Assembly (NCBI GenBank): GCA_902796445.1
Contig: CADBPJ010000306.1
Location: forward strand, 1 to 33,907
DNA length: 33,907 bases
Source of the DNA: an uncultured Ruminococcus sp.
GTDB lineage: Bacteria > Bacillota > Clostridia > UBA1381
Direction of reading: 5' to 3'
In this document: piece after piece, positions 1,320 to 24,791 of the stretch
Layout of the letters: the number at the start of each line of letters is the position of its first letter
Position numbering within the stretch: position 1 is the stretch's first letter
The notes under the pieces: generated by a model
Database searches by the model: none
Seen by the model: the letters and a program-made list of their open reading frames with translations, nothing else
What the model was told of the DNA's origin: nothing
Made by a program: the position numbers and the translations under genes

Positions 1320-2159
1320 ATGAAGAAAATTACAAACGAACTTATACAAAATTTTAAAACATATTTAGTTGAAGAAGAAAAATCCGATTCCACTATCGAG
1401 AAATATATTCGGGATATAACAGTATTTATGAATTGGCTGGAAAATGACGAGATTACAAAATGCAGAGTGTTGGAGTACAAAAAGGAGCTTATGGATAATT
1501 ATGCATCTACAAGTGTAAATTCTATTCTATCATCATTAAATAGTTTCTTTGCCTACAACGAATGGCACGATTGTAAAGTAAAAACCTTAAAAATTCAAAA
1601 ACAGATATTTGCAAATAAGGACAAAGAACTCACCAAAGCAGAATATGAAAGGTTATTAAAAGCGGCGCAGAGCAAAAATAACAAAAGACTCTATTACCTT
1701 ATGCAAACAATATGTTCATCAGGTCTACGCGTGTCAGAATTAAAGTATGTTGATGTAAATGCTGTAAGATCAGGACAAGCACTTATTAATTGCAAAGGCA
1801 AAATGCGGATAGTGCTACTTCCAAAAGAACTTTGTAAAATGCTCAAAGGATATATTAAAGAGCAAGGTATAAAAGAAGGTCCAGTATTTGTAAGCAGAAA
1901 CGGGAAACCGCTTGACAGGTCGAATATATGGAAAATGCTTAAAGGCTTGTGTGAAAATGCAGGAGTGTCCAAAGATAAAGTGTTTCCGCATAACTTAAGA
2001 CATTTGTTCGCAAGAACATACTACTCACTGCAAAAAGATATAGTTCGCCTTGCAGACATCCTCGGTCATTCCAGTGTAAATACTACTCGCATATACACTA
2101 TGGAATCAGGAACAGTCCACAGAATGCACATAGAAAAACTCGGACTTCTGCGATGCTAA
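1320..2159 (+). CDS. Xer-like tyrosine recombinase, probable DNA invertase
   Basis: This is a site-specific tyrosine recombinase of the XerC/XerD/phage-integrase family, 279 residues. I chose the ATG at 1320 because GGAG at 1307-1310 is 9 bases upstream; the ATG at 1311 touches the RBS and the longer reading frame from 1200 overlaps the leader RNA. The N-terminal SAM-like core-binding domain spans about residues 1-95. The catalytic domain keeps the full set: R137 in SSGLRVSEL, K161, H224 and R227 in HNLRH, H250 in LGHSS and the nucleophile Y259. The stop codon lies 7 bases before an inverted-repeat-bounded segment that carries a promoter, so its likely job is to invert that segment and switch the downstream surface genes. 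Expression may be set by the leader RNA and by self-binding at the promoter. Confidence 0.88.
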   Translation: MKKITNELIQNFKTYLVEEEKSDSTIEKYIRDITVFMNWLENDEITKCRVLEYKKELMDNYASTSVNSILSSLNSFFAYNEWHDCKVKTLKIQKQIFANKDKELTKAEYERLLKAAQSKNNKRLYYLMQTICSSGLRVSELKYVDVNAVRSGQALINCKGKMRIVLLPKELCKMLKGYIKEQGIKEGPVFVSRNGKPLDRSNIWKMLKGLCENAGVSKDKVFPHNLRHLFARTYYSLQKDIVRLADILGHSSVNTTRIYTMESGTVHRMHIEKLGLLRC

Positions 2160-2165
2160 ATAAAA

Positions 2166-2191
2166 AACAACATAATTCACATTATGTGGTA
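2166..2191. repeat. Left recombination site of the invertible segment
   Basis: The site has the form expected for a tyrosine recombinase: left arm AACAACATAA (2166-2175), 6-bp centre TTCACA (2176-2181), right arm TTATGTGGTA (2182-2191). Bases 2170-2191 are a perfect 22-bp inverted copy of 2428-2449. The outer arm differs from the ideal TACCACATAA at two positions. The centre is the reverse complement of the right site's centre, so recombination would invert the DNA between them rather than delete it. Confidence 0.82.
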
Positions 2192-2225
2192 AAAACAGGC
2201 ACATACATATACCTTACACGAAAAT

Positions 2226-2254
2226 ATTGTAACACCAAAACCTCGATTTGTCAA
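2226..2254 (-). promoter_or_regulatory. Invertible promoter P1
   Basis: TTGACA (2249-2254, perfect consensus) and TACAAT (2226-2231, 5 of 6) are separated by exactly 17 bases on the minus strand. It lies on the exit side of the internal hairpin, so its transcript leaves the segment unimpeded. Confidence 0.75.
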
Positions 2255-2312
2255 TGATTTACGCACAATTTGATGAATTTAGTCGATTTGAACAATATAA
2301 ATGAAACACAAA

Positions 2313-2348
2313 TAGACCAATGGCACTAAAAGATATTCCATTGGTCTA
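2313..2348 (-). terminator. Hairpin inside the invertible segment
   Basis: TAGACCAATGG (2313-2323) and CCATTGGTCTA (2338-2348) form a perfect 11-bp stem. On the minus strand the sequence after the stem is T-rich, on the plus strand it is not, so it fits a terminator for the P2 transcript and separates P2 from P1. Confidence 0.5.
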
Positions 2349-2414
2349 AGAATCGTTGTAAAAATGCGAATCTTAAACTTATGCAAGTTTCACTACACTG
2401 TTTTACATTGTTTT

Positions 2415-2443
2415 ATTATATCATCAATACCACATAATGTGAA
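2415..2443 (-). promoter_or_regulatory. Invertible promoter P2 with its -35 box in the crossover site
   Basis: TTCACA (2438-2443) and TATAAT (2415-2420) are 17 bases apart on the minus strand. The -35 box is the 6-bp centre of the right recombination site. Because the left site holds the same hexamer on the plus strand, the promoter is rebuilt intact after inversion. Its transcript would meet the hairpin at 2313-2348 after about 60 bases. Confidence 0.55.
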
Positions 2444-2453
2444 TTATGTGGTA
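2428..2453. repeat. Right recombination site of the invertible segment
   Basis: Perfect dyad: TACCACATAA (2428-2437), centre TGTGAA (2438-2443), TTATGTGGTA (2444-2453). Ten-bp arms around a 6-bp centre match the binding and crossover layout of Xer-type recombinases. Confidence 0.82.
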
Positions 2454-2733
2454 AGTGCATCTTTTTTTAGATGACAAAAGAGCAAACGATCGGAAATTTC
2501 TAAAAGAAGTGATATTTGATATATAGTGAGAAAGAAAAGGCTCAACATGTTGCACTATTTTTGTTTGTGGGGTAATGAGGGGTTTTCGGAAGAAAAACTA
2601 ATGTTTATAAGGGTATTAAAAAGTTAAATTAGAAAAGGGTAAATAATATGTTTTGCTCACTTTGGTTAGATAGCGGATAGTACCGCTGTTTTGGATATAA
2701 ATTATGTACAAATTATTTTAGGAGGATTATTTA
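2454..2733. other. Leader region between the switch and the surface protein gene
   Basis: There is no gene here that I can support. It holds CATCT and AGATG around a T7 run (2458-2474), a 4-bp hairpin GCGG/CCGC (2674-2686) and a possible 10-codon leader peptide at 2649-2681. I see no convincing resident promoter and no riboswitch I can identify, which supports dependence on the invertible promoter. A strong RBS (AGGAGG) precedes the ATG at 2734. Confidence 0.5.
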
Positions 2734-5700
2734 ATGAACACAAAAGTGATTAAGACAAACAAAATGTTATCGTTGTTATTGACAATAACAATGATAGCAA
2801 CAATGGTTTTGCCGATGTCTGTATTTGCAGCGACAGAGCCGACAATTACAACTGATCTTAATACAAAGAGACTTGTAATTGATGAAACAATGGAATTTAC
2901 AGTTACAACAGAAAAAAATGATGGTACGCAAATTGTAAAAGGAAAGTTTGAAGTAACTGCTAATGTCGGGGATTTTAAATTAGAGTATGAGGAATCATCA
3001 ACCCCCGAAGAAGATTGGCATGTTATTCCAAATGTTGACGAAACACCATTAGTAACAGGTACTTTTGGCCCTTCGACAGGTTTTCCGGTTATGAATGCAA
3101 CATCGAAGTTCAGAGTTACATTTAACACGCCCGGTACTTATGACATTAAGGTAAGCTTAGTTGATGTATCAACATCAGCGTATGTGTGCTTTAAAGATAT
3201 TCAGGTTACAGTATTAGATTATGCGGATTACAGTGATTTGAATACAGCTATTGCGACTGCGAATGCTCTTAATGAGGATGACTATACAGCAACAAGCTAT
3301 GCAGAGTTAAAAACTGCGGTTGAAACGGCAGAAGCTTTTGTTGCACAGCCGAAAGTTGCATCGGACGAGCAGGCTACGGTTGATACATATACTGACGCAA
3401 TCGTAAATAAAAAAAATGCGTTGGTTAAAATGAAAACTGTTGACTTTACAGCGGTAGCTGTAGCAGATGATGCAAGTGTAAACTATGCGAAAGCGACAAA
3501 AATTGTAATGATTTTTGCAGAGCCTATTGCTGATGGAGCAGATATTCTTTCAAATCTTTCAATTAAGGATAAGATTCAGTCAGCAGCTTGGAGAGATACA
3601 TCAAATACTGTGTATGAATTAGTTCTGAAAAGTGATGCGAATTTGAATAACGGAACAAAAATTACATATACAACAAACGATTCTATAAAAACAAAAACAG
3701 GATATGTATTAAATACTGTTTCAGATATTGAGGTAATTGGAAACTTAGAAGAAGCATCTGCAATGGTTACAGCCACAAAGATGGCTGCAACAATTGTTAA
3801 GGCTTCTGACAAACCCGGCGTAGTTGCAGGCGATAAGATTGTATTTGTATTTAACGCACCAATCAAAGATAATCCGGCAACAATTACCATTGACGGTAAA
3901 ACAGCAAATGCAGTTACAGGAACGGCTAATACAGTATACGAATTAACTTTAACAGGTACTGAAAACTATACAGATGCTTCTACATTTGATTATGGCTCAA
4001 TTACAGACGTTCCATTAAATGGTACATTTGGCACAGCAGTTGCACCGAGAGCTATGAGGGCATATGCTATTGATAACGATGGAACTGAACTCGTGTACAA
4101 TAATGTTGATGGCACTGTTTACAAAGATCAGATTGTTGTTGTATTTGATACTCCCACAAATAAGGCGAATGATATTTCAAAGATTAGTGTTGTAGGTACA
4201 GGTTATACAGCTTCTTTGGGAACAAAAGCAGAACTTAACTGGGAAGACGATGGTACAAAACTTGTTATAACATTAGGACAGGATACCGTAATTAAAAAAG
4301 GTGCAACAATTGATTTAACAAATCTCGGTATTATGGATAAATATGACATAGTTTCTGCTGATAGTACAACACTGGAACTTGATATTGAGGGTTCATTCGG
4401 TTATACAACAAAACCAAGAATCACAAAAGCGGTTGCATTTACACAAGGTGAACTTGACTATATTAGAATTTTCTTTAACACACAAGTAAAAGTTGTTGGT
4501 GAAGTGGGAGTCACAACCGGTTTCCCAATGACAAATATAATACGTGAAGGATTGAATACCACTGTTCCCGGACTTACATATTATGAATTTGTAATGCCTA
4601 AAGATGGACATGGTGAATTTACAAGCAAACAATATACCATTGCATTGAGCGGACTTGTGGACAAAGATACAGGTACTATAGCATTGGATACAACACCGGT
4701 TGATATTATTGGCGGATTTATCTCTCCGATTGTCCCTGAAGTGTTAGATGTAGTTGCACTTAGTCAGGATGGCAGCGGTATCGCAAAGATGGGAGATAAG
4801 ATTCTTGTTATATTCAACATTGCGGTTGAAGGCGGAAACATAACACTCCTTAACAACAATTTCGGTACAAATAGACCTGATGATGCGATAGAAGGAAATG
4901 TTCTTACAATTACATTGGGTGAAAATACAACAGTTAAAGTTGGCGATAAGATTAGAGTTAGTGATTTCGTAGATAGTGCGACCTTATCAGCTAAGATGAA
5001 AACAGAGGATATTGCTATTGGCGGAACATTTGGTAAGATTATTGAACCAAAAGTTCTTAGCATTACAGCTATGAGTAAAGACGGAAGTGGTGTTGCTAAG
5101 GCTGGCGATGAAATTGTAGCAGTGTTTAACACATCTGTTAAAGTAACACATATTAATGGTACACCTGTTACAGAAAAAACTGGTGCAGTTTACACATATG
5201 TTTTAACTAAAGCTGGCGAATATGAAGTTGGCGGTGCATTTGAGTTAACTGTGGAAAGCGTAGACACAGGGTTAACTTATGTGTTAGACAAGGTTGGAAA
5301 AGAAGAAACAGATGATGCGGTTGTAGGTGGAAGCTTTGGTTGGAGTGAAATGCCGAAAGTAAAATCTGTGGTATTGTCAGAAACAGAGGGAAAGGAAATA
5401 ATAACTGTTGTTTTTGATAGAGCAACCAATATGCAGTCAATCTCAAATGCAACACTTGCAACATTTAGAACAAATAATGCACACTTGGGTACTGATGTAA
5501 CTGCAATGTGGGAGAATAATACAGTTCTTAAAATTACACTTGGAGCAAGTGCAACAACAAGAGAAACAGATGTATTGAATCTTTCGGCGTTGGGAATTAA
5601 GGCAGATGACACAGGTGCGGAAATTACAGGGATTGATGCACTTGCAATTAAAGGATTATTAGTTCCAGTTGTGAAAAATGTGACAGCAGCAGATGGCAAA

Positions 5701-6660
5701 ATTACAATTAATTTCTCATCAAGAACAAATGGTGTAGCGAATATTTCTAATTTTACTTCATTATTTGGTGTTGGTGCAACAACAGCATGGAGTAACTACA
5801 ATAGAACGCTTACAATTACCCTTGGTCAAAACTATACAATCAGAAATAATGGTTACGTTGTCTTGAATGGTATGGGCATTACTGACGGATTTACAGGTGA
5901 ACACAGTGTGATAGGTGAATACAGAGTTGTTGGTGACATTGCTTCCAATAAGGTTGCAGTAGTAAGTGTTATAGCTCAGAGCACAAATAAGGCGATTGAA
6001 ACAGCACATAAAGGTGATACAATTGTTATTAAGTTTAACAGTGCTACGGATTTAAAAGGTTTTGCGTTGAACACACCTATTTCAGCTGCTGATGTTGACA
6101 CATTTATTTCAGTTGAAGGTGGCAACGAAGCTGCATTTGGTACAGGATACACTGGTATTTGGACAGCTTATGATAGATTTGTTATCAACCTTGGCGGTTC
6201 CACAACAGAGGGTGAAGGCGAGAGTGCTGTAACAACAGGAGTTGATCCTTCAATTACCATAGATAACATTATCAAAATCAAAAATGTGAAATTTGCAGAT
6301 GGTACAGGCAAGATGGATGATGCTTCTATCGCATTAACCGGAAGCTTTGACGGAAGAGAATTCCTTATCAAGAAGAATGATAACATAACAACAGTTGGTG
6401 CAGATTGTAGAGTTAAGGCATCTGTGGAATATATCTACGGAGAAAAAACACCGACAATCGTATGTGTAGCATACAAGGAAGCTACTGTTGCCGGTATTAT
6501 GAGAATGACATTGTCAATCAATGACAAAGTTGAGTCAGTGTTCGAGTTTGCTAATGGTGCGGATATTACATCAGCAAAAATCTTTGTATTTGACGATGCG
6601 TTTAGTGATATTACTGCAAGTCCAGAGGTATTAGCAAAAACAATTGAAATAACAAAATAA
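2734..6660 (+). CDS. Large repetitive secreted surface protein with FIVAR domain
   Basis: A 1308-residue exported protein. Residues 1-33 are a signal peptide (basic start, hydrophobic core, cleavage likely after MSVFA). Residues about 34-160 look like an Ig-type beta domain. Residues about 163-233, starting at YSDLNTAIATANALNEDDYT, match the FIVAR three-helix fold found in Gram-positive adhesins. From about 236 to 1210 there are eight or nine modules of about 100 residues; several open with a block like VxAxSxDGSGxAKAGDxIxxxFN and close with GGTFG or GGSFG. The last 100 residues form a separate end domain. There is no SLH, LPXTG or transmembrane anchor, so the protein is either released or held by a partner such as the SLH protein encoded next. 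Start supported by AGGAGG. It lies directly downstream of the invertible promoter and is its most likely target. An adhesin or S-layer role is inference. Confidence 0.85.
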   Translation: MNTKVIKTNKMLSLLLTITMIATMVLPMSVFAATEPTITTDLNTKRLVIDETMEFTVTTEKNDGTQIVKGKFEVTANVGDFKLEYEESSTPEEDWHVIPNVDETPLVTGTFGPSTGFPVMNATSKFRVTFNTPGTYDIKVSLVDVSTSAYVCFKDIQVTVLDYADYSDLNTAIATANALNEDDYTATSYAELKTAVETAEAFVAQPKVASDEQATVDTYTDAIVNKKNALVKMKTVDFTAVAVADDASVNYAKATKIVMIFAEPIADGADILSNLSIKDKIQSAAWRDTSNTVYELVLKSDANLNNGTKITYTTNDSIKTKTGYVLNTVSDIEVIGNLEEASAMVTATKMAATIVKASDKPGVVAGDKIVFVFNAPIKDNPATITIDGKTANAVTGTANTVYELTLTGTENYTDASTFDYGSITDVPLNGTFGTAVAPRAMRAYAIDNDGTELVYNNVDGTVYKDQIVVVFDTPTNKANDISKISVVGTGYTASLGTKAELNWEDDGTKLVITLGQDTVIKKGATIDLTNLGIMDKYDIVSADSTTLELDIEGSFGYTTKPRITKAVAFTQGELDYIRIFFNTQVKVVGEVGVTTGFPMTNIIREGLNTTVPGLTYYEFVMPKDGHGEFTSKQYTIALSGLVDKDTGTIALDTTPVDIIGGFISPIVPEVLDVVALSQDGSGIAKMGDKILVIFNIAVEGGNITLLNNNFGTNRPDDAIEGNVLTITLGENTTVKVGDKIRVSDFVDSATLSAKMKTEDIAIGGTFGKIIEPKVLSITAMSKDGSGVAKAGDEIVAVFNTSVKVTHINGTPVTEKTGAVYTYVLTKAGEYEVGGAFELTVESVDTGLTYVLDKVGKEETDDAVVGGSFGWSEMPKVKSVVLSETEGKEIITVVFDRATNMQSISNATLATFRTNNAHLGTDVTAMWENNTVLKITLGASATTRETDVLNLSALGIKADDTGAEITGIDALAIKGLLVPVVKNVTAADGKITINFSSRTNGVANISNFTSLFGVGATTAWSNYNRTLTITLGQNYTIRNNGYVVLNGMGITDGFTGEHSVIGEYRVVGDIASNKVAVVSVIAQSTNKAIETAHKGDTIVIKFNSATDLKGFALNTPISAADVDTFISVEGGNEAAFGTGYTGIWTAYDRFVINLGGSTTEGEGESAVTTGVDPSITIDNIIKIKNVKFADGTGKMDDASIALTGSFDGREFLIKKNDNITTVGADCRVKASVEYIYGEKTPTIVCVAYKEATVAGIMRMTLSINDKVESVFEFANGADITSAKIFVFDDAFSDITASPEVLAKTIEITK

Positions 6661-6724
6661 ATTTAATTTGTATGGAGTTGAACAAATCCTCAACCCCTTA
6701 CAATTAAGAGTGAGGTGTTTAATT

Positions 6725-8554
6725 TTGAAAAAAATAACAGCATTTATAACAGCACTATTGCTTATATTAAATTTATTTTCTTTTTCTGCTTTTGCTTTAG
6801 GTGAAACAGTAACAATAGACGCTATTGATTATGGCGAAGGAAAAACATCTTTTAATATTGGTGATACTGCTAAAATTACAGGAACATGTACTGAAAAAAA
6901 AGATTTGGTCTTAAGACTATATGACGAAAAAGGAGCAATGATTTATACAGATGTAATATATGCTTCTGATAATGATGGTACTTTTGAATTTGATGGCATA
7001 GTTATTCCTGATACAGACTCGACTGGTACATTATCATATAAGGCGTATATAAGCATTACAGGAAATAATAGTGCTTATGAACAAGTAGTCAAGATAAATG
7101 GAAAAACCGAACTTTCTCCAACCCCAGGTCCTGGACCGGGACCTGGGCCAAAAACTGATCCAATTAATATATGCGAAAAGTGTGGCTGGGAAACATGTAG
7201 ATGTAATGAGCCAGAAGATACTTCAGTAGATGAAGTAGGAAAGGCATACAACCATACTGAAAACTATGAGATTATTGCAGAAGCTGCAAAACAAAAAACA
7301 CCTAAAGCTGGAGCTGCAATGATTGATATTGTTACAAAAGCAACCTCGCCAGAAGCACTGGCTGGAGAAGCGGCAAGAAATACAATTGCTATGTCGGTGG
7401 AAGCAATGATGGCTAATATCAGTTCAAAGAAAATTAGCACAACAAGCTCAACAAATAAACTTGTTCTTAAAGAATCATCAATCAGTGATGCAGATCTTAA
7501 GAAGTACACTGATACAGAAAAAACACTTAACGATGCAATGAATAAAAACAAGATTACTTTAAACAGAGAATTGTCAAAAGAGTATATTGTCAACACAACC
7601 TTTAGCACAACAAAGAAAGCGAATATTACGGTTTATAGTAAGTTTGTTGAGAAACTGGGAAAAGTAGGTATTAATACACTTACAATCAATGATAAGAATT
7701 TCCGTGTATCATATTCAATAACAGAACTTAAAACAATGATTGGTGATAAAGAATTCGCATCGTTTGATATTGATACTACTGCCATGACGGGCACAACAAA
7801 GAAATTATCTGTGAATTTTGATACAGATAAAACAACAGCAGTTAAAATTTCATTCCCGGGATTAAAGGGCGACAGTAAGTATATGGCTATCGTTGATGAA
7901 AATGGTAATCCTGTTGGCGGTAGATATAACCCTGCAACAGGTGCAATTGAAGCAAAGATTGTTGCAAGCGGCGAATATCAGATCGTAATGAATGAAAAAG
8001 ATTTTGATGATATCAAAAATAAGAGTGAGGAAATGCAGGAATCAATTAAAATTCTTGCTGCAAAAGGTATTATTGAAGGTACATCAGAAAAGTCATTCAG
8101 CCCTGATGACACTATTTCAAGAGCAGAAATTGCTGCATTGCTTTTGAGAGTGCTTTCACAGGATGATCCTAATGCTGATGGTGGTTTTGTTGATGTTAAA
8201 AAATCTGATTGGTTCTATGGAACTGCCGGTTCAGCAAAAGCATACGGAATGATTGCAGGATTTGAAGATAACACATTCAGAGGTAATGCAGTCATTGAAA
8301 AAGATCAAATTCTTACTATTGCATCTCGTGTATTGCAACGAGAAATGGCGTATAAAACACCAACAGATGTTAACGAGTATTTAACCTATGCCGATTCTGC
8401 TCAAATTGCAGATTGGGCTAAAGATGGTGTTGCATTGGCAACAATGGCAAATATCGTAACACGAAACGAAAACAATTTAATTGAGTCAACAGAAGATATG
8501 ACTCGTGGTGAGGCGGCTCTAATTATTATGAGGCTGTTCTACAAGATTTGGTAA
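6725..8554 (+). CDS. SLH-domain cell-wall surface protein
   Basis: A 609-residue exported protein. I start it at TTG 6725, because GAGGTG lies 7 bases upstream and the product then begins with a proper signal peptide, MKKITAFITALLLILNLFSF, ending near FSAFA; a longer frame from 6668 has no RBS. Residues about 25-130 look like an Ig-type domain. A Pro-Gly linker (about 132-142) leads into a cysteine knot, CEKCGWETCRC (about 149-160), which could bind zinc. Residues about 200-430 are lysine/threonine-rich beta structure. Three S-layer homology repeats (about 438-609, with SFSPDDTISRAEIAALLLRV and later copies) should bind secondary cell-wall polymer. It follows the large repetitive protein by 64 bases, so the two are probably one transcript. 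It may anchor the anchorless neighbour. Confidence 0.85.
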   Translation: MKKITAFITALLLILNLFSFSAFALGETVTIDAIDYGEGKTSFNIGDTAKITGTCTEKKDLVLRLYDEKGAMIYTDVIYASDNDGTFEFDGIVIPDTDSTGTLSYKAYISITGNNSAYEQVVKINGKTELSPTPGPGPGPGPKTDPINICEKCGWETCRCNEPEDTSVDEVGKAYNHTENYEIIAEAAKQKTPKAGAAMIDIVTKATSPEALAGEAARNTIAMSVEAMMANISSKKISTTSSTNKLVLKESSISDADLKKYTDTEKTLNDAMNKNKITLNRELSKEYIVNTTFSTTKKANITVYSKFVEKLGKVGINTLTINDKNFRVSYSITELKTMIGDKEFASFDIDTTAMTGTTKKLSVNFDTDKTTAVKISFPGLKGDSKYMAIVDENGNPVGGRYNPATGAIEAKIVASGEYQIVMNEKDFDDIKNKSEEMQESIKILAAKGIIEGTSEKSFSPDDTISRAEIAALLLRVLSQDDPNADGGFVDVKKSDWFYGTAGSAKAYGMIAGFEDNTFRGNAVIEKDQILTIASRVLQREMAYKTPTDVNEYLTYADSAQIADWAKDGVALATMANIVTRNENNLIESTEDMTRGEAALIIMRLFYKIW

Positions 8555-8736: not shown

Positions 8737-9822
8737 ATGGCAAAAATCAATATAGTAATTGCTGATTCAGACGAACTGTACCTAAATCATTTAACGAATT
8801 ATATGATTGAACATATGAACACCTTTGAAGTTTGCTCATTTACAACAAAAGAGAGCTTAATTAAATATGTTGGAGACAAATCTAACAAAATAGATATTAT
8901 AGCGTTTACTGAAGAACTTATGGATGGAACCATCAGTGTTGCAAATATACCTGCAAAGGTATTACTTTCAGATGGTTCTTTTACTGAACTTGATTTTGAA
9001 TCAGTTAACAAGTATCAAAAAGCTGAAAAATTTATTAACGATATTTTGATGATATATGCGGAAAAGACAGGTCGTGTTGAAGCTGTTTCGACAGGGGATA
9101 AGGACACTAAGATTGTTGGTTTCTTCTCACCAGTTGGTGGCTCAGGAAAAACAACACTTGCTGTTGCTACTGCATATGCATTAGCAAGTCAAGGTAAACG
9201 TGTGTTCTATATGAACGCTGAAAAGTTAAATTCAACATATAATGTTTTAAATGAAGGAAATAATGGAAGTCTTTCTGATTTATATTTAACCGTAAAAACG
9301 AAAGGCGCTAATATTGGTCTTAGAATTATTGCGAATAAATTTACAGATGTTAACACAAATATATCATACATCAATCCGGCTGAGAGTTCTCTGGAAATCA
9401 ATGAACTTACATTAGATGAATTCAACAAACTCATCAAGGAATTCAAACAGCTCGGTGAATTTGATGTTGTGGTTATTGACTTTGATACTGAATTTAGCAA
9501 GGAGAAGGTCGAAATCTTGAATTGTATGGACAGAATCATTGTTCCTTTTACAAGTGAAAATCTTTCGATAGCAAAAATAGGATTATACATTAAAGAACTT
9601 GGTATGTATGATGAGTTAAAAGAAATTTCTGAAAAGTCGGTATTTGTTCTTAATAAATCAAATGCGCAAAGTATTTCGGCATTACAGTCAAGCGGTGCTC
9701 TTGGAAATTGTGAAGTAAGGGCAAATATTGCAATCACACCAGTATTTGCAGATCTAAAGAACTTGCTTCATTCCGGGAATATGGTTTTACAAGTTATGGC
9801 AAAGGTTATAGAAACAATATAA
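8737..9822 (+). CDS. tadZ: TadZ/CpaE-like pilus localisation ATPase
   Basis: A 361-residue protein with the two-part layout of TadZ/CpaE. Residues 1-115 resemble a degenerate response-regulator receiver domain (INIVIADSDELY at the start). From about 125 there is a ParA/MinD-type ATPase. Its P-loop reads SPVGGSGKTT (about 131-140), keeping the GKTT core but having Pro-Val where classical ParA proteins have the signature lysine, as is common in TadZ. VVIDFDTEF (about 248) is the Walker B region. TadZ proteins set the polar or focal site at which the Tad machine assembles. It is the first gene of the pilus locus, with an AGGGAG ribosome binding site, and the TadA ATPase follows 13 bases later. 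The receiver domain as a phosphorylation target is uncertain. Confidence 0.85.
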   Translation: MAKINIVIADSDELYLNHLTNYMIEHMNTFEVCSFTTKESLIKYVGDKSNKIDIIAFTEELMDGTISVANIPAKVLLSDGSFTELDFESVNKYQKAEKFINDILMIYAEKTGRVEAVSTGDKDTKIVGFFSPVGGSGKTTLAVATAYALASQGKRVFYMNAEKLNSTYNVLNEGNNGSLSDLYLTVKTKGANIGLRIIANKFTDVNTNISYINPAESSLEINELTLDEFNKLIKEFKQLGEFDVVVIDFDTEFSKEKVEILNCMDRIIVPFTSENLSIAKIGLYIKELGMYDELKEISEKSVFVLNKSNAQSISALQSSGALGNCEVRANIAITPVFADLKNLLHSGNMVLQVMAKVIETI

Positions 9823-9835
9823 GGCGGTGGGTTAA

Positions 9836-11071
9836 TTGATAGAGAATATGCCCGAATACATAAAAGAGATGAGAGCATTAGTATCGGATAGACTTGATTT
9901 AACAAGGGACTTGTCTGATGATGAGATAAGAGAAGTAATATCAAATATCATTGCCGAAAAATCGCAAGAAAAATATTTAACTCTTGTAGAAAAGAAAGCG
10001 GTTATGGATGGAGTATTTAATTCGATGCGCGGACTGGATGTTTTGCAACCGTTAGTTGATGATCCATCTGTTACAGAAATAATGATTAATGGTCCTGATG
10101 ATGTATTTATAGAGCAGGATGGCAAACTATTTAAAAAAAATGTTAGCTTTGGCAGTGAAGAAAAATTGCAGAATGTAATTCAAAACATTGTAGCAAAGGT
10201 AAACAGAACCGTTAATGAATCAACTCCTATAGTTGATGCTCGTTTGCAGGATGGTTCCCGTGTTAACGTAGTTTTGCCGCCAATTGCATTAAACGGACCA
10301 ACGGTTACAATTCGTAAGTTCCCGGAAAATCCAATGACCGTGCAGCAACTTATAGCATATAAATCAATTACTACGGAAGTTGCAGAATTTTTGGAAAGAT
10401 GTGTTAAAGCAAAATACAACATATTCATTAGCGGCGGTACAGGTTCAGGTAAAACAACATTTCTTAATGCAATGTCAAATTTTATTCCGCATGATGAACG
10501 TATAATTACTATAGAGGACTCTGCAGAACTTCAAATCAGAGGTGTGGACAACCTTGTAAGGCTTGAAACACGTAATGCAAATATGGAAGGCAAGGGAGAA
10601 ATCACAATAAGAGATCTGATTAAATCATCTTTGCGTATGAGACCGGAACGAATAGTTGTCGGCGAGGTGCGCGGAGCGGAGGCTCTTGATATGCTGCAGG
10701 CTATGAATACAGGACATGATGGCTCGCTATCAACAGGACATGCTAACTCTACAAAAGATATGTTATCTCGTCTTGAGACGATGGTTTTGACAGGCGCGCA
10801 AATACCGCTTGAAGCAATAAGACAGCAAATTGCATCTGCGGTTGACATCATTATTCAGCTTTCAAGACTTAGAGATAAATCAAGAAGAACAATGGAAATA
10901 ACTGAAGTATTAGGATTTGAAAACGGTGAAATCAAACTAAATCCGATATATCAGTTTATTGAAACCGGCGAAGATGAAAATCATAAAATAATCGGTTCGC
11001 TTCAACGAACAGAAAACGCTATGGTTAATACCTATAAATTTGCATCAGCCGGATTATCAACAAGAGTTTAG
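9836..11071 (+). CDS. tadA: TadA/CpaF-type pilus assembly ATPase
   Basis: A 411-residue secretion ATPase of the VirB11/CpaF family, which powers both assembly and retraction of Tad pili. It shows the N-terminal helical region (1-75), the [19 protein letters not shown] block, Walker [10 protein letters not shown] (about residue 200), the Asp box IEDSAELQI, Walker [18 protein letters not shown] and the His box [14 protein letters not shown]. It starts at TTG 9836 behind AAGGCGGTGG; the ATG at 9848 (residue 5) is the alternative. It is a cytosolic hexamer docking on TadB/TadC. Length is normal for the Firmicute form. It lies between tadZ and tadB with spacings of 13 and 12 bases, so one operon. 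Confidence 0.93.
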
Positions 11072-11083
11072 GGGGGTGAAATT

Positions 11084-11881
11084 GTGGGTTTGTTTAAAAA
11101 GAGTGAAAAACCGGAAATGGTAGAACGAGAAGATGGACTGATAGATTATGATGTGTATGTGATGAGTAAAGAAGAAAAGATATTTTATATAATACTTGCC
11201 TATGTAGTCATATTTATTGTGGGATTCATTTTCTATGAAAGAATAATATTGGCGGCACTATTAGGATTGTTAGCTTTTAAATTTCCTAAAATGAGGACAG
11301 CACAAATAATCAAGTCAAGGAAAAATGCATTAAATATTCAATTTAAAGATTGGCTTTATTCATTATCATCTTCTATGTCTGCTGGTAGGTCAATAGAAAC
11401 ATCATTTAAAGAATCATATAAAGATTTGGAAATCATATATACAAATCCTGAAACACCTATAATGAAGGAACTTCAGCATATGATTAGATGCCTTGAGATG
11501 AATGAAACTGTTGAAGATGTAGTTAGTGAATTTGCTGAAAGAACACATATAGAGGATATTATGAATTTTGCTGATGTAATTAAAATCAGTAAACGAAGCG
11601 GTGGTAACTTGGTAGAAGTTATAAGAAGTACATCTAATGTTCTTGGAGATAAAATAGAAACAAAGATGGATATTGAAACAACGATTTCAGGAAAGAAATT
11701 TGAATCGAGAATTCTTTGTTGTATGCCTATTGTAATGGTGGCAATTTTAACGGCTACATCTTATGACTATATGGAAAAAGTTTTCACAACTTTTATCGGT
11801 CATGCCGTAATGACAGTTTCAATAGCAATGTTTGTAGCAGCGTTTTTCATTGGTGAAAAAATAATGGATATTGAGGTGTAA
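11084..11881 (+). CDS. tadB: TadB-like inner-membrane platform protein
   Basis: A 265-residue type II secretion F-domain protein. The GTG start at 11084 follows AGGGGGGTG. Two hydrophobic segments lie near residues 30-70 (FYIILAYVVIFIVGFIFY and the adjoining stretch) and two near the C-terminus (about 205-260). The cytosolic T2SSF domain between them carries the family block with NIQFKDWLYSLSSSMSAGRS and later ADVIKISKRSGGNLVEVI. TadB and TadC together form the membrane platform that transfers pilin into the growing filament, driven by TadA. The next gene starts 3 bases after this stop. Confidence 0.85.
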   Translation: MGLFKKSEKPEMVEREDGLIDYDVYVMSKEEKIFYIILAYVVIFIVGFIFYERIILAALLGLLAFKFPKMRTAQIIKSRKNALNIQFKDWLYSLSSSMSAGRSIETSFKESYKDLEIIYTNPETPIMKELQHMIRCLEMNETVEDVVSEFAERTHIEDIMNFADVIKISKRSGGNLVEVIRSTSNVLGDKIETKMDIETTISGKKFESRILCCMPIVMVAILTATSYDYMEKVFTTFIGHAVMTVSIAMFVAAFFIGEKIMDIEV

Positions 11882-11884
11882 AAA

Positions 11885-12826
11885 ATGAATGTTGTAAAAA
11901 TAATTATAGCTGCAATATCCGGTATTTTTTTTGCCATTGCACTAATTGTTATGCTTTTAAATCATAAAAATGGTAAAGAAATTTATTCTGAATATCGTGA
12001 TTATCTGACTAAGGATGATTGCACACTAAAAGATTATATACATATTGGTTTGATGCTTAATGCAAAAATAAATCTGTATAAATATATGCCGGAGATGTTG
12101 GCAGCAGAACTTAGAAAATATAATACTTCTGTTAAAAATAAGATTACTGAATTATACGGTATTAAGCTTTCTGAATTTTATACCGAAATACATGCGGCAG
12201 AAAAATGGCTATATTCGCTATTATGTTTTGCATTGTGTTCAGTATTTTCACTTGCACTTATATTGAACAATGGTGACATATCTACAAGTGCTGTTTTGCT
12301 TGGTGCAGCTATGCTTGGTGCTGCGGGACTCCCGTTTTTAGCAGATTATGAATTGAATTCAAAAATAGAGAAAAGACGCTTATCTATTCAACTTGAGTTC
12401 CCTGATTTTGTTAATACATTAATATTGTTGGTGAATGCTGGAATGACTATTCCTAAGGCGTGGGAAAAAATTGTTTCAGAAAGTAAAAAAACTACACCTT
12501 TATACAATGAATTAAGGTATTGTTTGGCTGAAATTAGTGCAGGAAAAAGCGAGGCGGTTGCCTACGAAGAATTTGGCAGACGTTGTAAGGTAAAAGAAAT
12601 TGTAAAGTTTGTTTCCGTAATAATTCTTAATTTGAGAAAAGGCGGTAGTGAAGTTGTTTCAGCTTTAAAACTACAATCTACAGAATGTTGGGAAATGAGA
12701 AAGGCAACTGCGAAAAGATTGGGAGAACAAGCATCAAGCAAACTTATGCTTCCTATGGGAATAATGTTGGTCGGTATTATGTTGGTTACTGTTTTACCTG
12801 CTATTTTATCACTTATGTCAATGTAA
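11885..12826 (+). CDS. tadC: TadC-like inner-membrane platform protein
   Basis: A 313-residue second T2SSF-domain protein, partner of TadB. A hydrophobic N-terminal helix (about 5-27) is followed by a cytosolic stretch, two central membrane segments (about 105-155), the F-domain with LEFPDFVNTLILLVNAGMTI and GRRCKVKEIVKFVSVIILNL, and a C-terminal membrane helix (about 288-312). GAGGTG at the end of tadB supplies the ribosome binding site. Two separate F-domain proteins, rather than one fused protein, is the normal Tad arrangement. Confidence 0.85.
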   Translation: MNVVKIIIAAISGIFFAIALIVMLLNHKNGKEIYSEYRDYLTKDDCTLKDYIHIGLMLNAKINLYKYMPEMLAAELRKYNTSVKNKITELYGIKLSEFYTEIHAAEKWLYSLLCFALCSVFSLALILNNGDISTSAVLLGAAMLGAAGLPFLADYELNSKIEKRRLSIQLEFPDFVNTLILLVNAGMTIPKAWEKIVSESKKTTPLYNELRYCLAEISAGKSEAVAYEEFGRRCKVKEIVKFVSVIILNLRKGGSEVVSALKLQSTECWEMRKATAKRLGEQASSKLMLPMGIMLVGIMLVTVLPAILSLMSM

Positions 12827-13318: not shown

Positions 13319-13936
13319 ATGAGAAAGAGTTCTAAGGGTTCATATACAGTAGAAGCAACGATAGTTATTTCATCATTGCTCATCGCTTTATGTGCAGTTA
13401 TGTTTGCGTTTATGCTAATGTATCAAAATGTTGTTATTATTTATGCGGCGTCTTATGGTGCCCAGCAAGGTGCTCGTTCATGGGTGAATACTGGAATATC
13501 AATGGATGGTACAAGCCGAGAATATACAAGTGGATTATATAGTGATATAGCAGAATTAACAGGTGGTGGAGATACTTCTGCAAAAAAAAAGAAAATTGAA
13601 AATGCAGTTAAAGATAAATTAAAGATGAGTGTTTTTTCTACAAATACTGCAAATATAAATGTTAATTTTGAAAACAACATACTTCAAAGGAAAGTCGTTG
13701 TTGACATCAAGCAGACTATTCCTATTCCTTTTAGTGGTATTGCTAAATTCTTTAATAATGGAGAGGCTTTTGCACTCAAAGCAAAAATGGAAGCAACCGT
13801 TGCAGAGCCAACAGAATACATAAGAAATATTGACTATGCTTTAGAGTGGATTCAAAGCGCAGGAAAATGGCTTAAAGAAACTTTGGGAAATGATGCTGGA
13901 AGTAAAGCTGCTGGCAAGATTAAGGGGTTGAAGTGA
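13319..13936 (+). CDS. TadE-like pseudopilin
   Basis: A 205-residue TadE/TadG-family protein. The start at ATG 13319 has AAGGAG 9 bases upstream; an in-frame start at 13274 would add 15 residues without an RBS. The N-terminus reads MRKSSKGSYTVEATIVISSL, the typical Gly-Ser/Thr-hydrophobic-Glu cleavage context for the prepilin peptidase, followed by a membrane helix to about residue 35 and an extracytoplasmic domain. TadE-type pseudopilins are minor pilus components or assembly adaptors. Its stop overlaps the next start (TGATG), so the two are translationally coupled. Confidence 0.82.
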   Translation: MRKSSKGSYTVEATIVISSLLIALCAVMFAFMLMYQNVVIIYAASYGAQQGARSWVNTGISMDGTSREYTSGLYSDIAELTGGGDTSAKKKKIENAVKDKLKMSVFSTNTANINVNFENNILQRKVVVDIKQTIPIPFSGIAKFFNNGEAFALKAKMEATVAEPTEYIRNIDYALEWIQSAGKWLKETLGNDAGSKAAGKIKGLK

Positions 13937-16458
13937 TGGATAATAAAAAACAAAAAGGTGCTGTAACAGTATTCTTAGTAATGATCCTACTTGCTTGTTT
14001 TATGTTTGGGGGGTTTTTTATTGATTCTGCTCGAATATTAGTTGCAAAAAGACATGTAAAGAATGCGGTAAATTCCGCAGCTCGTTCAACACTATCATAT
14101 TATGATGAGAACTTAGTTGCAGAATATGGATTGTTTGCTGTTGATGGCAATACCGTAAATGCCAATTTTAATAAATACCTTGCAAATAATCTTACAAAAT
14201 CAAAAGATGAAGGTATGGCAATGTTTAAATATAAAATAAACAGTGCAACAGCAACGGCTCAAAGACCTCTTGAAGGCGAAGAATTACATCGACAAATTGT
14301 TGAATATGAAAAATACAGAGGCCCGGTAAATATAACATTAGGTGTAGTTGAGAAATTTAAGAAAATTTTTGATAATACACCTGTAGACACAGGCAAAATC
14401 TCAAATGCTACAGATTGTGTGAAAGCAGTTAAAAAGAATTTTAAGGATAAAGATGGATTTTTAAAAGAATTAGGAAAAGGATTAAAAACAACAATTAAAA
14501 ACGATATAAAAAAAGGAGTAAAAAAAGACCTTCAAACGGTCACAACTTCATGGGTTCAAGGCGGAAAAGAACAAAATGGTTCTTTGCAGAATGTGTTGGC
14601 TGCTCAATATAAAAAAGCAGATGAGAATATTGCTGCGGCTAAAAACAGATTAAACGAATTAAAACAAGAAAGAGACAATTATGTAAATGCAGCTAAATCG
14701 GTATGTGATGGCAGTAGTCAAGAATCTACATCATCAGAGGCGAATGAATATATTTCGCAAGATAAAACTGTTCAACAACAAGCTGATGAACAAATCGCTC
14801 AATTAGAACAAGACATAGCAAAAGCTGAGAATATTTTAAATGGCAGTAACGGAGTAAAAGCAAATATAGAAAAATATAGACAGGAACTGGTCCCGATTGT
14901 AAATAGATGGGAGTCAAAAAAAACTGAACTGGTTACAGCTGAAAATAAATATAATGCTGCAAAAAGTACTCGGGAGGCGGCAGAAAGAGAAAAAACTGCT
15001 GCCCAATCCACGGTTAATGAATATAACAATACTATATCAGATGCTAATAGGACTATTTTGTGGTACAAGTCTGAAAAGGAAAAACTCGAGAGAGCTAACG
15101 ATGAGATAGCAACGCTTTTGAATGAAGATGGTATTGACATCTATAATGATGAAGAGTGGAAAACATATTGTCGTTTAATTGATAAAAACGATCGAACAAA
15201 AGAGGAAGATAAATGGATTAGAGACGTAGAAAAGCTTTATAATGACATTTTAAATACAACGTATATAAGAAAATATAATATGATGACAAATTATAAAAAC
15301 ATATCTTCTTATAATTCTAAAATTAGTACAAAGCAAAATGAATTATGGAAAGCGCAATCTTCGATTTCTTCAGCTAACACTGCACTGTCAACTGCAACTG
15401 CTAAATATAATGATGCAGTAGCAGAAGAAAATACATGGAAACAAAAGGTTGATGCAATCAAGGCTGAAATACAAAATTTAGAAACAGATATAGTTAACAA
15501 ACAAAACTCTATGTCAAGTGAAGCGGATAGACTAAATGATATTCCAGAATTTAAGATAAATGGAGTTACAATTCCTGATTTAAAAAAATCGGTAGATAAT
15601 TTATCAAACGATACAAAAAAAACATTTGGTGATAAAGTTCTTCAATATAGTAGCATTCTTTCTTATTTGGATAATATAAAAAAAGACTTAGAAAAACCAA
15701 TGTCAGCAGTAACAACTGGAAATGGAGAAAAAGTTGTAAATACAGAAGAAAAAAATCTCCTTACTTTAATGGACTCTATTAAATCGAATATACAATCAAT
15801 AGTTAATATATGTACTAATCCGGAGAGTCTTAGGAATGAGATGTACTACATTGATTATGTTATGGATAAAAATACATATTTGACATCCCAAACATCACGA
15901 AGTCATTATTTTAATAAAGCAGAAGTTGAATATATTATATATGGACATGATTCACAAGGAGCTAATATATTATCTGCAGTGGCAAGCATTTATGCAATAC
16001 GCTTTGTTATAGATTCAGTAAATTATTTCTGCACAAGTGTTAATCCGGAATTAATTTCCAGAATAGCTACAGCTATTGGAAAAGGTGCAGTACAGGCGGC
16101 TTTAGATATGTTAGATATGTTAGTGGATTTTGATGGCGATGGTGCAAAAGGGTGTTCAATATGTCCGTCCTTAGATAATTTAAATTTGAAACTATCATAT
16201 TCTGATCATTTAAGATTATTCCTGTTAATGAACTCTGGAACATCAAAGGATGCTTTGAAAAATACAATATCTACAACATTGGTAAATGAGAAGAATACTA
16301 AAGATTTAGACCAAATGTATACACAAATTAATGCAAAGGTTGAAGTTGAAGTTAATCTTATCATCTTGCCTATGATTGGTAGTGACTTACTGCCCAATAA
16401 TTATTTTAGAAATGGTTGCTATGTAATACATGAAAACATTGTGGAAGGATATGAATGA
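13936..16458 (+). CDS. Large TadG-like protein with central coiled coil (DUF5702-like)
   Basis: An 840-residue protein. The N-terminus (MDNKKQKGAVTVFLVMILLA) has the Gly-Ala-Val-Thr-Val-Phe entry and one membrane helix of TadG-type proteins, then IDSARILVAKRHVKNAVNSA and LVAEYGLFAVDGN, the block I associate with DUF5702. Residues about 228-541 are a long lysine/glutamate/alanine-rich coiled coil with very few prolines. The C-terminal 250 residues contain a hydrophobic patch around SAVASIYAIRFVIDSVNYF and end in a compact domain. It is far longer than ordinary TadE/F proteins. A tip or scaffold function is inference. GTG 13933 is the alternative start. It is coupled at both ends: its start overlaps the TadE-like stop and its stop overlaps the next ATG. 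Confidence 0.75.
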   Translation: MDNKKQKGAVTVFLVMILLACFMFGGFFIDSARILVAKRHVKNAVNSAARSTLSYYDENLVAEYGLFAVDGNTVNANFNKYLANNLTKSKDEGMAMFKYKINSATATAQRPLEGEELHRQIVEYEKYRGPVNITLGVVEKFKKIFDNTPVDTGKISNATDCVKAVKKNFKDKDGFLKELGKGLKTTIKNDIKKGVKKDLQTVTTSWVQGGKEQNGSLQNVLAAQYKKADENIAAAKNRLNELKQERDNYVNAAKSVCDGSSQESTSSEANEYISQDKTVQQQADEQIAQLEQDIAKAENILNGSNGVKANIEKYRQELVPIVNRWESKKTELVTAENKYNAAKSTREAAEREKTAAQSTVNEYNNTISDANRTILWYKSEKEKLERANDEIATLLNEDGIDIYNDEEWKTYCRLIDKNDRTKEEDKWIRDVEKLYNDILNTTYIRKYNMMTNYKNISSYNSKISTKQNELWKAQSSISSANTALSTATAKYNDAVAEENTWKQKVDAIKAEIQNLETDIVNKQNSMSSEADRLNDIPEFKINGVTIPDLKKSVDNLSNDTKKTFGDKVLQYSSILSYLDNIKKDLEKPMSAVTTGNGEKVVNTEEKNLLTLMDSIKSNIQSIVNICTNPESLRNEMYYIDYVMDKNTYLTSQTSRSHYFNKAEVEYIIYGHDSQGANILSAVASIYAIRFVIDSVNYFCTSVNPELISRIATAIGKGAVQAALDMLDMLVDFDGDGAKGCSICPSLDNLNLKLSYSDHLRLFLLMNSGTSKDALKNTISTTLVNEKNTKDLDQMYTQINAKVEVEVNLIILPMIGSDLLPNNYFRNGCYVIHENIVEGYE

Positions 16459-17396
16459 TGATGGGGTTTAATAAAAGAAAGCGGGGATCTCTTACTGTTG
16501 AAGCGGTTATTTCATTTGCAGTATTTGTATCATTTATGTTCATGCTGCTTTCAATGGTTAAGATTTCGCTCGTTAAAATCACTCTTGAAAATGCAGTTTC
16601 AGAAACTGCAAAATATATTGCATCAGCGTCATATCCTATTGGAATGTTTAATGATATTGCAGAAGATTCAAATAGAACGGTTGAAGCAGATATTACTGAA
16701 TTTAAGTTAGGTAAAGATATCCAGGCAAAGGGAATAGAGGCTTTGTTTGATAGCTTGTTTGCTGACTCTGAAGCATCCGCATTAAAAAGCATAGATGATG
16801 GTATAAATGGAATATTTGGGGTTATTACTGATGCAGGGACGAATATGCTTAAATCAGTGGTGTTGACGGGTGTAGAAAATCTTATTACCAAAGAAGGTTC
16901 TAAAGTTGCCGGTAATATTGTGTCAGAGGTAATAGATAACAGTTATGTATCTATTGATAAAGACAACCTGACTGTTACAATTGCTAAACTGCCTGTTCCT
17001 GAGCAAACATACAATATCAGTTATAACACATCTCAATTTACTGATATGGGATTGACAAAGAATGATTTTAATGAAGATGATGTTGTCATTGGTGTAGAGT
17101 ATGTGTATAAGCTGGCATTACCGTTTTTGACTACTATTGATGTTAAAATGCGTGAGGTGGCTGTTGAACACGCATGGGTTAATGGTGGAGCAGGAAATGT
17201 AACAACTCGTACGGAGGGGTTAAATTTCTCAGATATACTTGACAATATACTTGGAGGAGAGACGGTTTATGTTACAAACACAGGTGGTAAATACCACAAG
17301 GAGAATTGTTATTATCTGTGGGGAAGTAAAAATGAATATAAAAAAAGTAGCGCAATAGTAAGTGGTTATAGAGCTTGTAAAAAATGTGCTCCGTAG
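16458..17396 (+). CDS. TadE-like pseudopilin with C-terminal Ada-type cysteine domain
   Basis: A 312-residue second TadE-like protein. It begins MGFNKRKRGSLTVEAVISFA, again with a basic leader and Gly-Ser-Leu-Thr-Val-Glu cleavage context, then a membrane helix to about residue 38. The middle is an extracytoplasmic domain with no clear family. The last 40 residues (VYVTNTGGKYHKENCYYL to YRACKKCAP) match the small zinc-binding Ada-like domain found at the ends of many secreted Firmicute proteins, with the YHxxxC and CKKC elements. The start is ATG 16458 or 16455; both overlap the previous stop. It probably joins the same assembly as the other pseudopilins. Confidence 0.75.
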   Translation: MMGFNKRKRGSLTVEAVISFAVFVSFMFMLLSMVKISLVKITLENAVSETAKYIASASYPIGMFNDIAEDSNRTVEADITEFKLGKDIQAKGIEALFDSLFADSEASALKSIDDGINGIFGVITDAGTNMLKSVVLTGVENLITKEGSKVAGNIVSEVIDNSYVSIDKDNLTVTIAKLPVPEQTYNISYNTSQFTDMGLTKNDFNEDDVVIGVEYVYKLALPFLTTIDVKMREVAVEHAWVNGGAGNVTTRTEGLNFSDILDNILGGETVYVTNTGGKYHKENCYYLWGSKNEYKKSSAIVSGYRACKKCAP

Positions 17397-17412
17397 ACAG
17401 GTGGTAGAGTAA

Positions 17413-18000
17413 ATGTTAAAAGTTATATATGTTTTGGAAGTTCTTGCATTGATTGCCTTTAATATTATTTGGATTTGCAGAACCGACAACAAAAGAGTTA
17501 AATACATATTCATTTCCGTGATTAGTTTACTAGTTTGTGGAGTTATTACATCCATAAGCGAAGGTATAGGAATATACTCGTTTTTTATAACCGCTATTGT
17601 CGCATTGTTTAACATAATTACATTGTACGACATTAAAACGAGGTATATACCCAATATATTGCTATTCGTTTTGAATATCACGGGGTTGATTACTTCATTT
17701 TTTGTACCAAATGGAATGTTTATAACAAGCATCTTGGGGGCTTGGGTAATAACAGGACTATGCTTCTTAATTGGAAGAAAAGCAAAAAATGGAATTGGCA
17801 CTGGAGATTTGTACTGTATGAGTGGGCTTATGATGAGTATGAATTTTAACGGAATGATGAATTTTATGTTTAGTTCTTTATTCCTATCTCTTATTTATGG
17901 AGTAGGAACATTGATATTCAAAAAAAAGACGATGAAATCAGAGATGGCATTTGCACCATTTTTGTTGTGCGGCTATTTAGTCATGATTTTATGTAATTAG
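17413..18000 (+). CDS. Prepilin peptidase, A24 family (TadV/CpaA-like), copy 1
   Basis: A 195-residue polytopic membrane aspartic protease. The two catalytic aspartates are visible: YDIKTRYIPN (about residue 77) and GIGTGDLYCMSG (about residue 134, the GxGD motif). Six or more hydrophobic segments surround them. Proteins of this family cleave the leaders of Flp and TadE-type prepilins at the cytoplasmic face. There is no N-terminal zinc/methylase domain, so it is the short TadV/CpaA type. AGGTGG precedes the ATG by 9 bases. A second A24 enzyme is encoded at 20598-21122, so the substrates may be divided between the two. Confidence 0.85.
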   Translation: MLKVIYVLEVLALIAFNIIWICRTDNKRVKYIFISVISLLVCGVITSISEGIGIYSFFITAIVALFNIITLYDIKTRYIPNILLFVLNITGLITSFFVPNGMFITSILGAWVITGLCFLIGRKAKNGIGTGDLYCMSGLMMSMNFNGMMNFMFSSLFLSLIYGVGTLIFKKKTMKSEMAFAPFLLCGYLVMILCN

Positions 18001-19613: not shown

Positions 19614-19638
19614 TTAAAACAATGGGAGGAGCAAACGA

Positions 19639-20601
19639 ATGTATAAAATTAAAATCAGCTCCTACACAGACATTGGCGATGTAAAAACAACAAATCAGGA
19701 TTGTATTTTATCCAAAAATGCAACAATAAATAATCACAATGTCGGGTTATTTATTGTTGCTGATGGATGTGGTGGCCTTGCCTATGGAGAAGAAATCAGT
19801 AACCTTGTGGTGACTCATTTCTCAAGGGTTTGGAATAATGAATTAAAAAGTATTCTTTTAAATAAAAAGATTCGGCATAAAACAATCGACGACTTGTTGG
19901 AAAAAGCAATCAAAGAAATAAATGATGCAGCAAAAAATTTTGGTGGACAAGTTGGAAGTAAAGTAGGTTCAACAATATCTCTCTTGCTTACGATAGATAA
20001 GATTTATTATATAAAAAATGTAGGAGATAGTAGAGTTTACATAATTAGGAAGAACAAAATAACTCAGTTGACAGAAGATCAGTCTTTGGTTGCAGATATG
20101 ATAAGAAATGGCGAGCTGACAAAAGAAGAAGCAAAAAGCTTTAAAAAGAAAAATGTATTGACAATGTGTATTGGTGTTTTTGAAGATATTAGAACATATT
20201 CAAAAACAGGCAAAATAAAAGATAATGATGTATTCCTGTTGTGTTGCGATGGATTGCATAATCATGTATCCAATGAAGAGATGGTAAAAATTGTTCGAGA
20301 GAAAAAGATACCATTTGATGACAAGGCAAAAGCGTTGCGAGAAAAGATAGAAGAAGGTAAAGCAAACGATAATGTCTCAGGAATTGTATGTGAATTTGAA
20401 AGGGAAAAACATTTTATGCGAAATTTTATCATATGTACATTATTGATTTTATTAATAGGAATATTGGTTTGGATAGGAGTTTCATGGAAACATATATGCG
20501 AACATTATAAGTGTTGGACAACAATACCCGGTAAACACTGTGATATTTGCGATAAATATATTGGAAGCTCTTCGGTGATAGAAAAAGAGATAGAGCCATG
20601 A
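19639..20601 (+). CDS. PP2C-family Ser/Thr phosphatase with membrane anchor and Cys/His tail
   Basis: A 320-residue PPM/PP2C phosphatase. The metal-binding motifs are visible: DCILSK near the start, ADGCGG (where most have DGMGG), NVGDSRVYI, LCCDGL and NDNVSGIV. After the catalytic domain (about 1-250) one membrane helix (about 260-280, IICTLLILLIGILVWIGVSW) leads to an outer tail with HICEHYKC and CDICDKYI, which could be a zinc-binding or disulfide knob. It should dephosphorylate targets of the kinase encoded two genes later. The RBS is GGGAGGAG. Its stop overlaps the next start (ATGA). Confidence 0.85.
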   Translation: MYKIKISSYTDIGDVKTTNQDCILSKNATINNHNVGLFIVADGCGGLAYGEEISNLVVTHFSRVWNNELKSILLNKKIRHKTIDDLLEKAIKEINDAAKNFGGQVGSKVGSTISLLLTIDKIYYIKNVGDSRVYIIRKNKITQLTEDQSLVADMIRNGELTKEEAKSFKKKNVLTMCIGVFEDIRTYSKTGKIKDNDVFLLCCDGLHNHVSNEEMVKIVREKKIPFDDKAKALREKIEEGKANDNVSGIVCEFEREKHFMRNFIICTLLILLIGILVWIGVSWKHICEHYKCWTTIPGKHCDICDKYIGSSSVIEKEIEP

Positions 20602-21122: not shown

Positions 21123-21144
21123 AAAGCTATAAGAGGTGACATGT

Positions 21145-23364: not shown

Positions 23365-23384
23365 TTCATGAGGTGACGAATAAA

Positions 23385-24749: not shown

Positions 24750-24760
24750 GATAGGTTTTG

Positions 24761-24791
24761 TATAGCCTTCTGATACTAAAGGAAGGCTATA
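24761..24791 (+). terminator. Hairpin terminator after the propeller gene
   Basis: TATAGCCTTC (24761-24770) and GAAGGCTATA (24782-24791) form a perfect 10-bp stem with an 11-base loop, followed by CTTATTTGT. It ends the long pilus/signalling transcript or attenuates it before the second PP2C. Confidence 0.65.

Follow-up and report, generated by a model that had tools for sequence, protein, structure and literature searches.

A probable invertible-promoter switch beside a tyrosine recombinase gene, upstream of surface-protein and Tad-type pilus genes in an uncultured Ruminococcus

In an uncultured Ruminococcus sp., a long run of genes for surface proteins and a Tad-type pilus lies behind a tyrosine recombinase gene and a short segment bounded by inverted repeats. 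What determines whether these genes are transcribed? The window analysed here is the whole 33,907-nucleotide stretch, from contig C306. Its organization makes it very probable that the locus is a self-contained ON/OFF switch, in which an invertible promoter is served by the tyrosine recombinase encoded next to it. From the sequence, we infer that this recombinase performs the catalysis, that the promoter is active, and that the downstream genes are carried on a single transcript.

The proposed mechanism would involve: binding of the recombinase (1320-2159) to both flanking dif-like sites; strand exchange, which the matching 6-bp centres would permit solely in the inverting alignment, so that 2170-2449 flips; and a resulting change in the direction of the promoter. 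In the orientation drawn, which is OFF, the promoter would fire at the recombinase gene from its 3' side, leaving the downstream genes without one. After the flip, the promoter would lie at ~2365-2393 on the plus strand and would drive the surface-protein, SLH-protein and Tad-type pilus genes through a leader of ~330 nt. Convergent transcription in the OFF state might also damp the recombinase, although this is speculative and unlikely.

Sites, promoter and leader

The features of the locus are collected in Table 1. A first-pass annotation of this DNA had described perfect 22-bp inverted copies at 2170-2191 and 2428-2449, and a repeat search confirms them as the core of a 25-nt inverted repeat (2167-2191 and 2428-2452, 96%). 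The recombinase gene, said to end 7 bases before the 22-bp copies, in fact ends 7 bases before the 25-nt repeat and 10 before the 22-bp core. Similarly, 10-base arms around a 6-base centre had been ascribed to each site. The right site, 2428-2453, is indeed a full 10+6+10 dyad (TACCACATAA-TGTGAA-TTATGTGGTA), but the outer arm of the left site carries two mismatches (AACAACATAA). In general notation, the site core is ACATAA-N6-TTATGT, with the centre TTCACA on the left and, as first described, its reverse complement TGTGAA on the right. Sites of this form presumably resemble dif, a likeness that is taken here as a lead only.

Table 1. Features of the window, in order of position
Feature	Position	Strand	Evidence or detail
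Xer-like tyrosine recombinase, 279 aa, putative invertase	1320..2159	+	Pfam PF00589 E 3e-29, PF02899
Left recombination site	2166..2191		core ACATAA-TTCACA-TTATGT at 2170-2187; inverted repeat with right site; site family in 90 cassettes
Predicted invertible segment, drawn OFF	2170..2449		homologous opposite-strand segment in G055:C33, 68% over 138 bp, E 5e-10
Candidate promoter TTGACA-17-TACAAT, TG before the -10, now aimed at recombinase	2226..2254	-	consensus match
Conserved hairpin, putative transcription insulator, AGACCAATGG...CCATTGGTCT	2313..2348		RNA fold z -4.1
Second promoter-like match TTCACA-17-TATAAT	2415..2443	-	same direction as 2226-2254 promoter
Right recombination site	2428..2453		core ACATAA-TGTGAA-TTATGT at 2432-2449; inverted repeat with left site
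Leader without resident promoter match	2454..2733	+	promoter scan, Rfam
Secreted surface protein, 1308 aa, first cargo gene	2734..6660	+	signal peptide by eye; no Pfam match
SLH-domain surface protein	6668..8554	+	PF00395 E 2e-21
TadZ-, TadA-, TadB-, TadC-like pilus genes	8737..12826 (starts 8737, 9836, 11084, 11885)	+	AAA_31/TadZ-like, T2SSE/TadA, two T2SSF
TadE/G-like pseudopilin genes and prepilin peptidase	13933..18000	+	PF13400 (just below cut-off)/DUF5702, TadE below cut-off, Peptidase_A24
FHA protein, two PP2C phosphatases, second prepilin peptidase, Ser/Thr kinase, copper-amine-oxidase-N protein	18030..25609	+	profile matches

Within the segment, the promoter running from 2254 to 2226 scores 15.0 under the weight scheme used here and points away from the surface-protein genes, as had been annotated. 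Its consensus match suggests a strong promoter of the sigma-70 type. Inversion in silico moves it to plus-strand positions 2365-2393 with a score of 15.0, where it faces the surface-protein genes as had been predicted. The -35 of the second promoter-like match (2443 to 2415) is the centre of the right site, and this match may be fortuitous. The absence of another good promoter before the 1308-residue protein is also borne out: the best plus-strand score in the leader is 8.1, below the shuffle median of 10.0, and no plus-strand match between 2160 and 2760 exceeds 10.5 in the same scheme. Neither the leader nor the hairpin matches an RNA family in Rfam.

Related cassettes and their orientation

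The family survey used whole-genome searches, a scan of genome contigs with a single protein having given two relatives only. Relatives of the recombinase are found at E 1e-60 or better in 31 of 70 genomes of the family, and at E 1e-90 or better in 51 of 391 genomes sampled from class Clostridia. Both sites could be read in 90 cassettes across Clostridia, comprising a family set of 42 and 48 further cassettes. In all 90, reverse-complementing the left centre gives exactly the right one (42/42 and 48/48); 52 different centres occur, none of them palindromic. The family set alone contains 29 different centres, with all pairs matching, where shuffles reach at most 8. This covariation is the prediction of centre-dependent strand exchange, and it supports the earlier argument that matching centres impose inversion. 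In G005:C64 the arms themselves are altered in step (ACATTA/TAATGT). Selection for different centres among cassettes sharing a genome was also considered and is unsupported, as a common centre occurs in 4 of 45 such pairs, compared with 2.4% of pairs drawn from different genomes.

The family segments are gene-free and measure 131-413 bp from core to core. Each carries one strong outward promoter, with a median distance of 56 bp between the end of its -10 and the outer site edge, and this promoter lies above the 95% shuffle level in 38 of the 42. Segments of the 48 further cassettes look similar, with weaker promoters in distant members. The promoter points toward the recombinase (OFF) in 63 of the 90 cassettes and toward the cargo (ON) in 27, a count that includes one unreliable call where the segment holds a run of N (G227:C23); by set, the figures are 31 OFF and 11 ON in the family and 32 OFF and 16 ON in the remainder. 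The complete cassette of invertase, sites, promoter and cargo proposed in the first-pass annotation is present, and it recurs as a unit in many genomes and in both orientations. Absent from that inventory were the hairpin (2313-2348), the two sister cassettes of this genome and the downstream Tad pilus genes. Two plasmid-typed records carry the same cassette (L119, NZ_OY725740.1; L121, OY725857.1), the species being Monoglobus pectinilyticus and Subdoligranulum variabile.

Both orientations exist among relatives of the window's cassette itself. The window's segment (OFF) aligns on the minus strand to that of G055:C33 (ON), with the two recombinases running the same way; G055:C33 appears identical with the contig of L018. 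Likewise, the segments of G023 (OFF) and G027 (ON) align on the minus strand with 79% identity over 225 bp. For most pairs of homologous segments, the alignment is on the plus strand if the orientation is like and on the minus strand if it is unlike, the exceptions involving segments in which both strands give strong matches or local internal repeats occur. Between two Monoglobus pectinilyticus strains, the cassette has the same orientation and no inversion was found (L175 is assigned to this species from 99% identity).

Assembly breaks provide a second line of evidence. Among 48 left sites of the family, 4 have their core no more than 4 bp from a contig terminus, against an expectation of 0.017 (p 3.5e-9). 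Contigs C7 and C5 of G029 share an overlap of exactly 77 bp that begins at the edge of the repeat. In G022, the recombinase-side contig C2 and the cargo-side contig C42 open with an identical 77 bp, the promoter-side end of the segment; this would be the expected outcome if the reads contained both orientations, and a longer inverted repeat could in principle also be its source. Further contigs that end at sites are G026:C23, G028:C71, G040:C83, G023:C29, G310:C4, G439:C23, G439:C63, G439:C154 and G136:C6. Contig overlaps point to an assembly word length of 77; a repeat of ~25 bp should not break such an assembly, so that breaks at the sites imply both orientations in the reads. Together, the breaks and shared 77-mers appear to indicate coexisting orientations in these relatives.

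The window's own contig passes through the switch in one orientation only, without a break at the sites, and inversion in this strain is a property that we infer from sequence features. Two further cassettes are present in the same genome, on contigs C76 and C79. Each of their recombinases is 67% identical to the window's, and their site centres differ from the window's and from one another. All three cassettes are assembled OFF without a contig break, as would be seen if recombination at the sites had been lost in this strain, leaving the locus fixed OFF and the operon silent or driven from elsewhere. Such fixation is improbable: the recombinase gene is intact and retains the catalytic residues R..K..HxxR..H..Y; the site cores are perfect and their centres match; and the orientation is mixed in relatives.

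The C76 cassette (L008, G000:C76; sites at 5927, 6234 and 6275) has a TetR gene and Wzz/CpsB-type polysaccharide genes downstream of it. It is one of several with two or three sites on one side, ~33-45 bp apart (also G027:C18, G023:C29, G022, G028 and G049:C30), an arrangement that would permit alternative inversions or small deletions. The C79 cassette (L009, G000:C79) lies upstream of a YspA/SLOG-family gene. A cytosolic protein of this family, an unusual cargo for phase variation, is the first neighbouring cargo both there and in G062:C10, which belong to different genera.

Hairpin, recombinase and downstream genes

The hairpin in the segment recurs in other cassettes. Its CCAATG-N-CATTGG motif has four occurrences in the genome, three of which are inside the three invertible segments. 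Other cassettes retain the stem with paired changes, such as CCGATG/CATCGG, a covariation that is only suggestive because pairing was the criterion by which the stems were identified; in 45% of segments the hairpin lies above the 95% shuffle level. No strong T-tract follows the hairpin on either strand, the flanks being only mildly T-rich, so that the term intrinsic terminator is an interpretation of the stem. One possibility would be that the central hairpin blocks read-through from the recombinase gene and insulates the cargo in both states, a role that seems slightly less probable than its absence.

The hairpin also bears on a different mechanism, in which an upstream start, such as the recombinase promoter, reads through the segment and inversion alters a terminator hairpin and not a promoter, as proposed for the C. 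difficile cwpV switch (PMC2784873). Conservation of a hairpin within the segment and a recombinase gene co-directional with the cargo would suit such a design. Here, however, the hairpin is nearly symmetric and central, hence barely changed by inversion, and it has no strong T-run on either strand; in addition, a strong outward promoter recurs across cassettes at a fixed distance from the site. The terminator mechanism is improbable, and an invertible promoter remains the preferred reading.

By profile and sequence matches, the recombinase resembles XerA/XerD and phage integrases, and XerA/XerD is its best NCBIfam match, under the equivalog cut-offs. Assignment to the XerC/XerD/XerA chromosome-resolution type was rejected on these cut-offs (XerA 152/220, XerD 140/330 and XerC 121/335 bits). 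A serine invertase (Hin, Mpi) was rejected on the fold, that of a PF00589 tyrosine recombinase, and a RecV-type trans-acting enzyme on the position of the gene, which abuts its own left site and is not unlinked. An Xer/dif-type integration/excision element, with a phage-like integrase and attachment sites, might be read from these resemblances and from the presumed likeness of the sites to dif, but is very improbable: the sites are inverted and not direct, the enclosed segments are gene-free and promoter-bearing, the Xer cut-offs are missed, and the reading is already contradicted.

Two observations concern the DNA upstream of the recombinase. Positions 891-1117 hold the remains of a small gene, possibly an accessory gene, with a 73-aa relative that is intact in L017 and G088:C10, where it lies immediately before the recombinase gene; by eye and by search, the window copy lying outside the search, its reading frame looks split into two. 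On the minus strand at 7-718, a metallophosphoesterase-like gene seems to be disrupted: only 7-567 falls within the listed ORF, and by eye the reading continues upstream beyond an in-frame stop.

Downstream, all genes from 2734 to 25609 (~23 kb) lie on the plus strand, closely spaced except for gaps near 8.6 and 13 kb. The gaps scanned within this run contain no strong promoter match, and a palindrome (25664-25705) follows its last group of genes. The switch had been annotated as controlling surface proteins; surface-protein and SLH genes are indeed downstream, but this description is too narrow, as the ~23-kb block includes the Tad-type pilus. Beyond the block, a tRNA-Leu gene (31853-31936, minus strand) overlaps called ORFs.

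The same order of recombinase, switch, surface protein (44%), SLH protein (59%) and TadZ (93% over 107 aa) is found in another family, in G136:C31, where the homologue of the 1308-aa protein occupies the same position behind the switch. Orthologous Tad loci of G103 and G239 have no such switch within the stretch read, the G239 contig beginning 427 bases before TadZ; the switch is therefore not obligatory for the pilus. TadZ is found at E 1e-70 in 3 of 391 sampled Clostridia genomes, and given this rarity and the two loci without a switch, operon and switch look sporadic and were probably transferred. The near-identity of so rare a TadZ in a different family makes recent horizontal transfer of the TadZ-type locus (8737-25609) likely.

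Across cassettes, the cargo includes a Tad pilus, capsule, a YspA/SLOG protein and surface proteins. In an uncultured, gut-type member of the Clostridia, surface-protein, SLH and Tad-type pilus genes are hereby placed under a probable all-or-none switch, the design of which is shared by dozens of related bacteria, frequently with both positions represented. Pairs of ACATAA-N6-TTATGT directly behind a tyrosine recombinase gene form a signature from which such switches can be recognized in Clostridia assemblies, along with their state and cargo, and contigs broken at the sites can serve as an inexpensive indicator that flipping is active. A tentative generalization, still on the doubtful side, would be a Clostridia-wide group of autonomous Xer-derived flip cassettes with: a common site scaffold; many 6-bp centres; a conserved insulating hairpin; a fixed geometry whose OFF promoter fires back at the 3' end of the adjoining recombinase gene, as state-dependent flipping feedback; and unrelated cargo.

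Comparison with known systems

An invertible promoter with an adjacent invertase is a known kind of device; the cargo is notable, and some details of the design are possibly new. A literature search on phase-variable Tad pili and on phase variation by dif-like inversion yielded no relevant paper, which is weak evidence of absence. In a gut-community study, inverton group 139, with invertase group 35, comprises 33 invertons, 32 of them from Clostridia. Nearly all adjoin a tyrosine recombinase, flipping was seen by read mapping, and in one of the listed examples a distance of 205 bp separates the 26-bp repeats (PMC11892184). Size, class and recombinase linkage agree with the window's cassette, the family of which is probably this group; Tad cargo, the hairpin and variable centres are not mentioned for group 139 in the sections consulted (PMC11892184).

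The RecV switches of C. difficile (cwpV, flagellar and cmr) share a clostridial tyrosine recombinase, short inverted repeats, and surface or motility genes. RecV acts at several unlinked sites, and cwpV uses a terminator and not an invertible promoter (PMC2784873, PMC5903667). In contrast to this control from a distance, the window's recombinase adjoins its own sites.

Chromosome resolution by Xer/dif is similar in recombinase fold and in site architecture, with arms around a 6-bp centre. It differs in that the sites described here are paired, inverted and next to the gene, and in that the recombinase falls below the Xer equivalog thresholds. The E. coli fimS switch (FimB/FimE) resembles the cassette in having a tyrosine recombinase beside an inverted segment of ~300 bp that carries the promoter of a surface-organelle operon. 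Unlike fimS, the window's cassette has a single recombinase, dif-like dyad sites with a 6-bp centre and different cargo, and the cassette recombinase always lies upstream, pointing into the segment.
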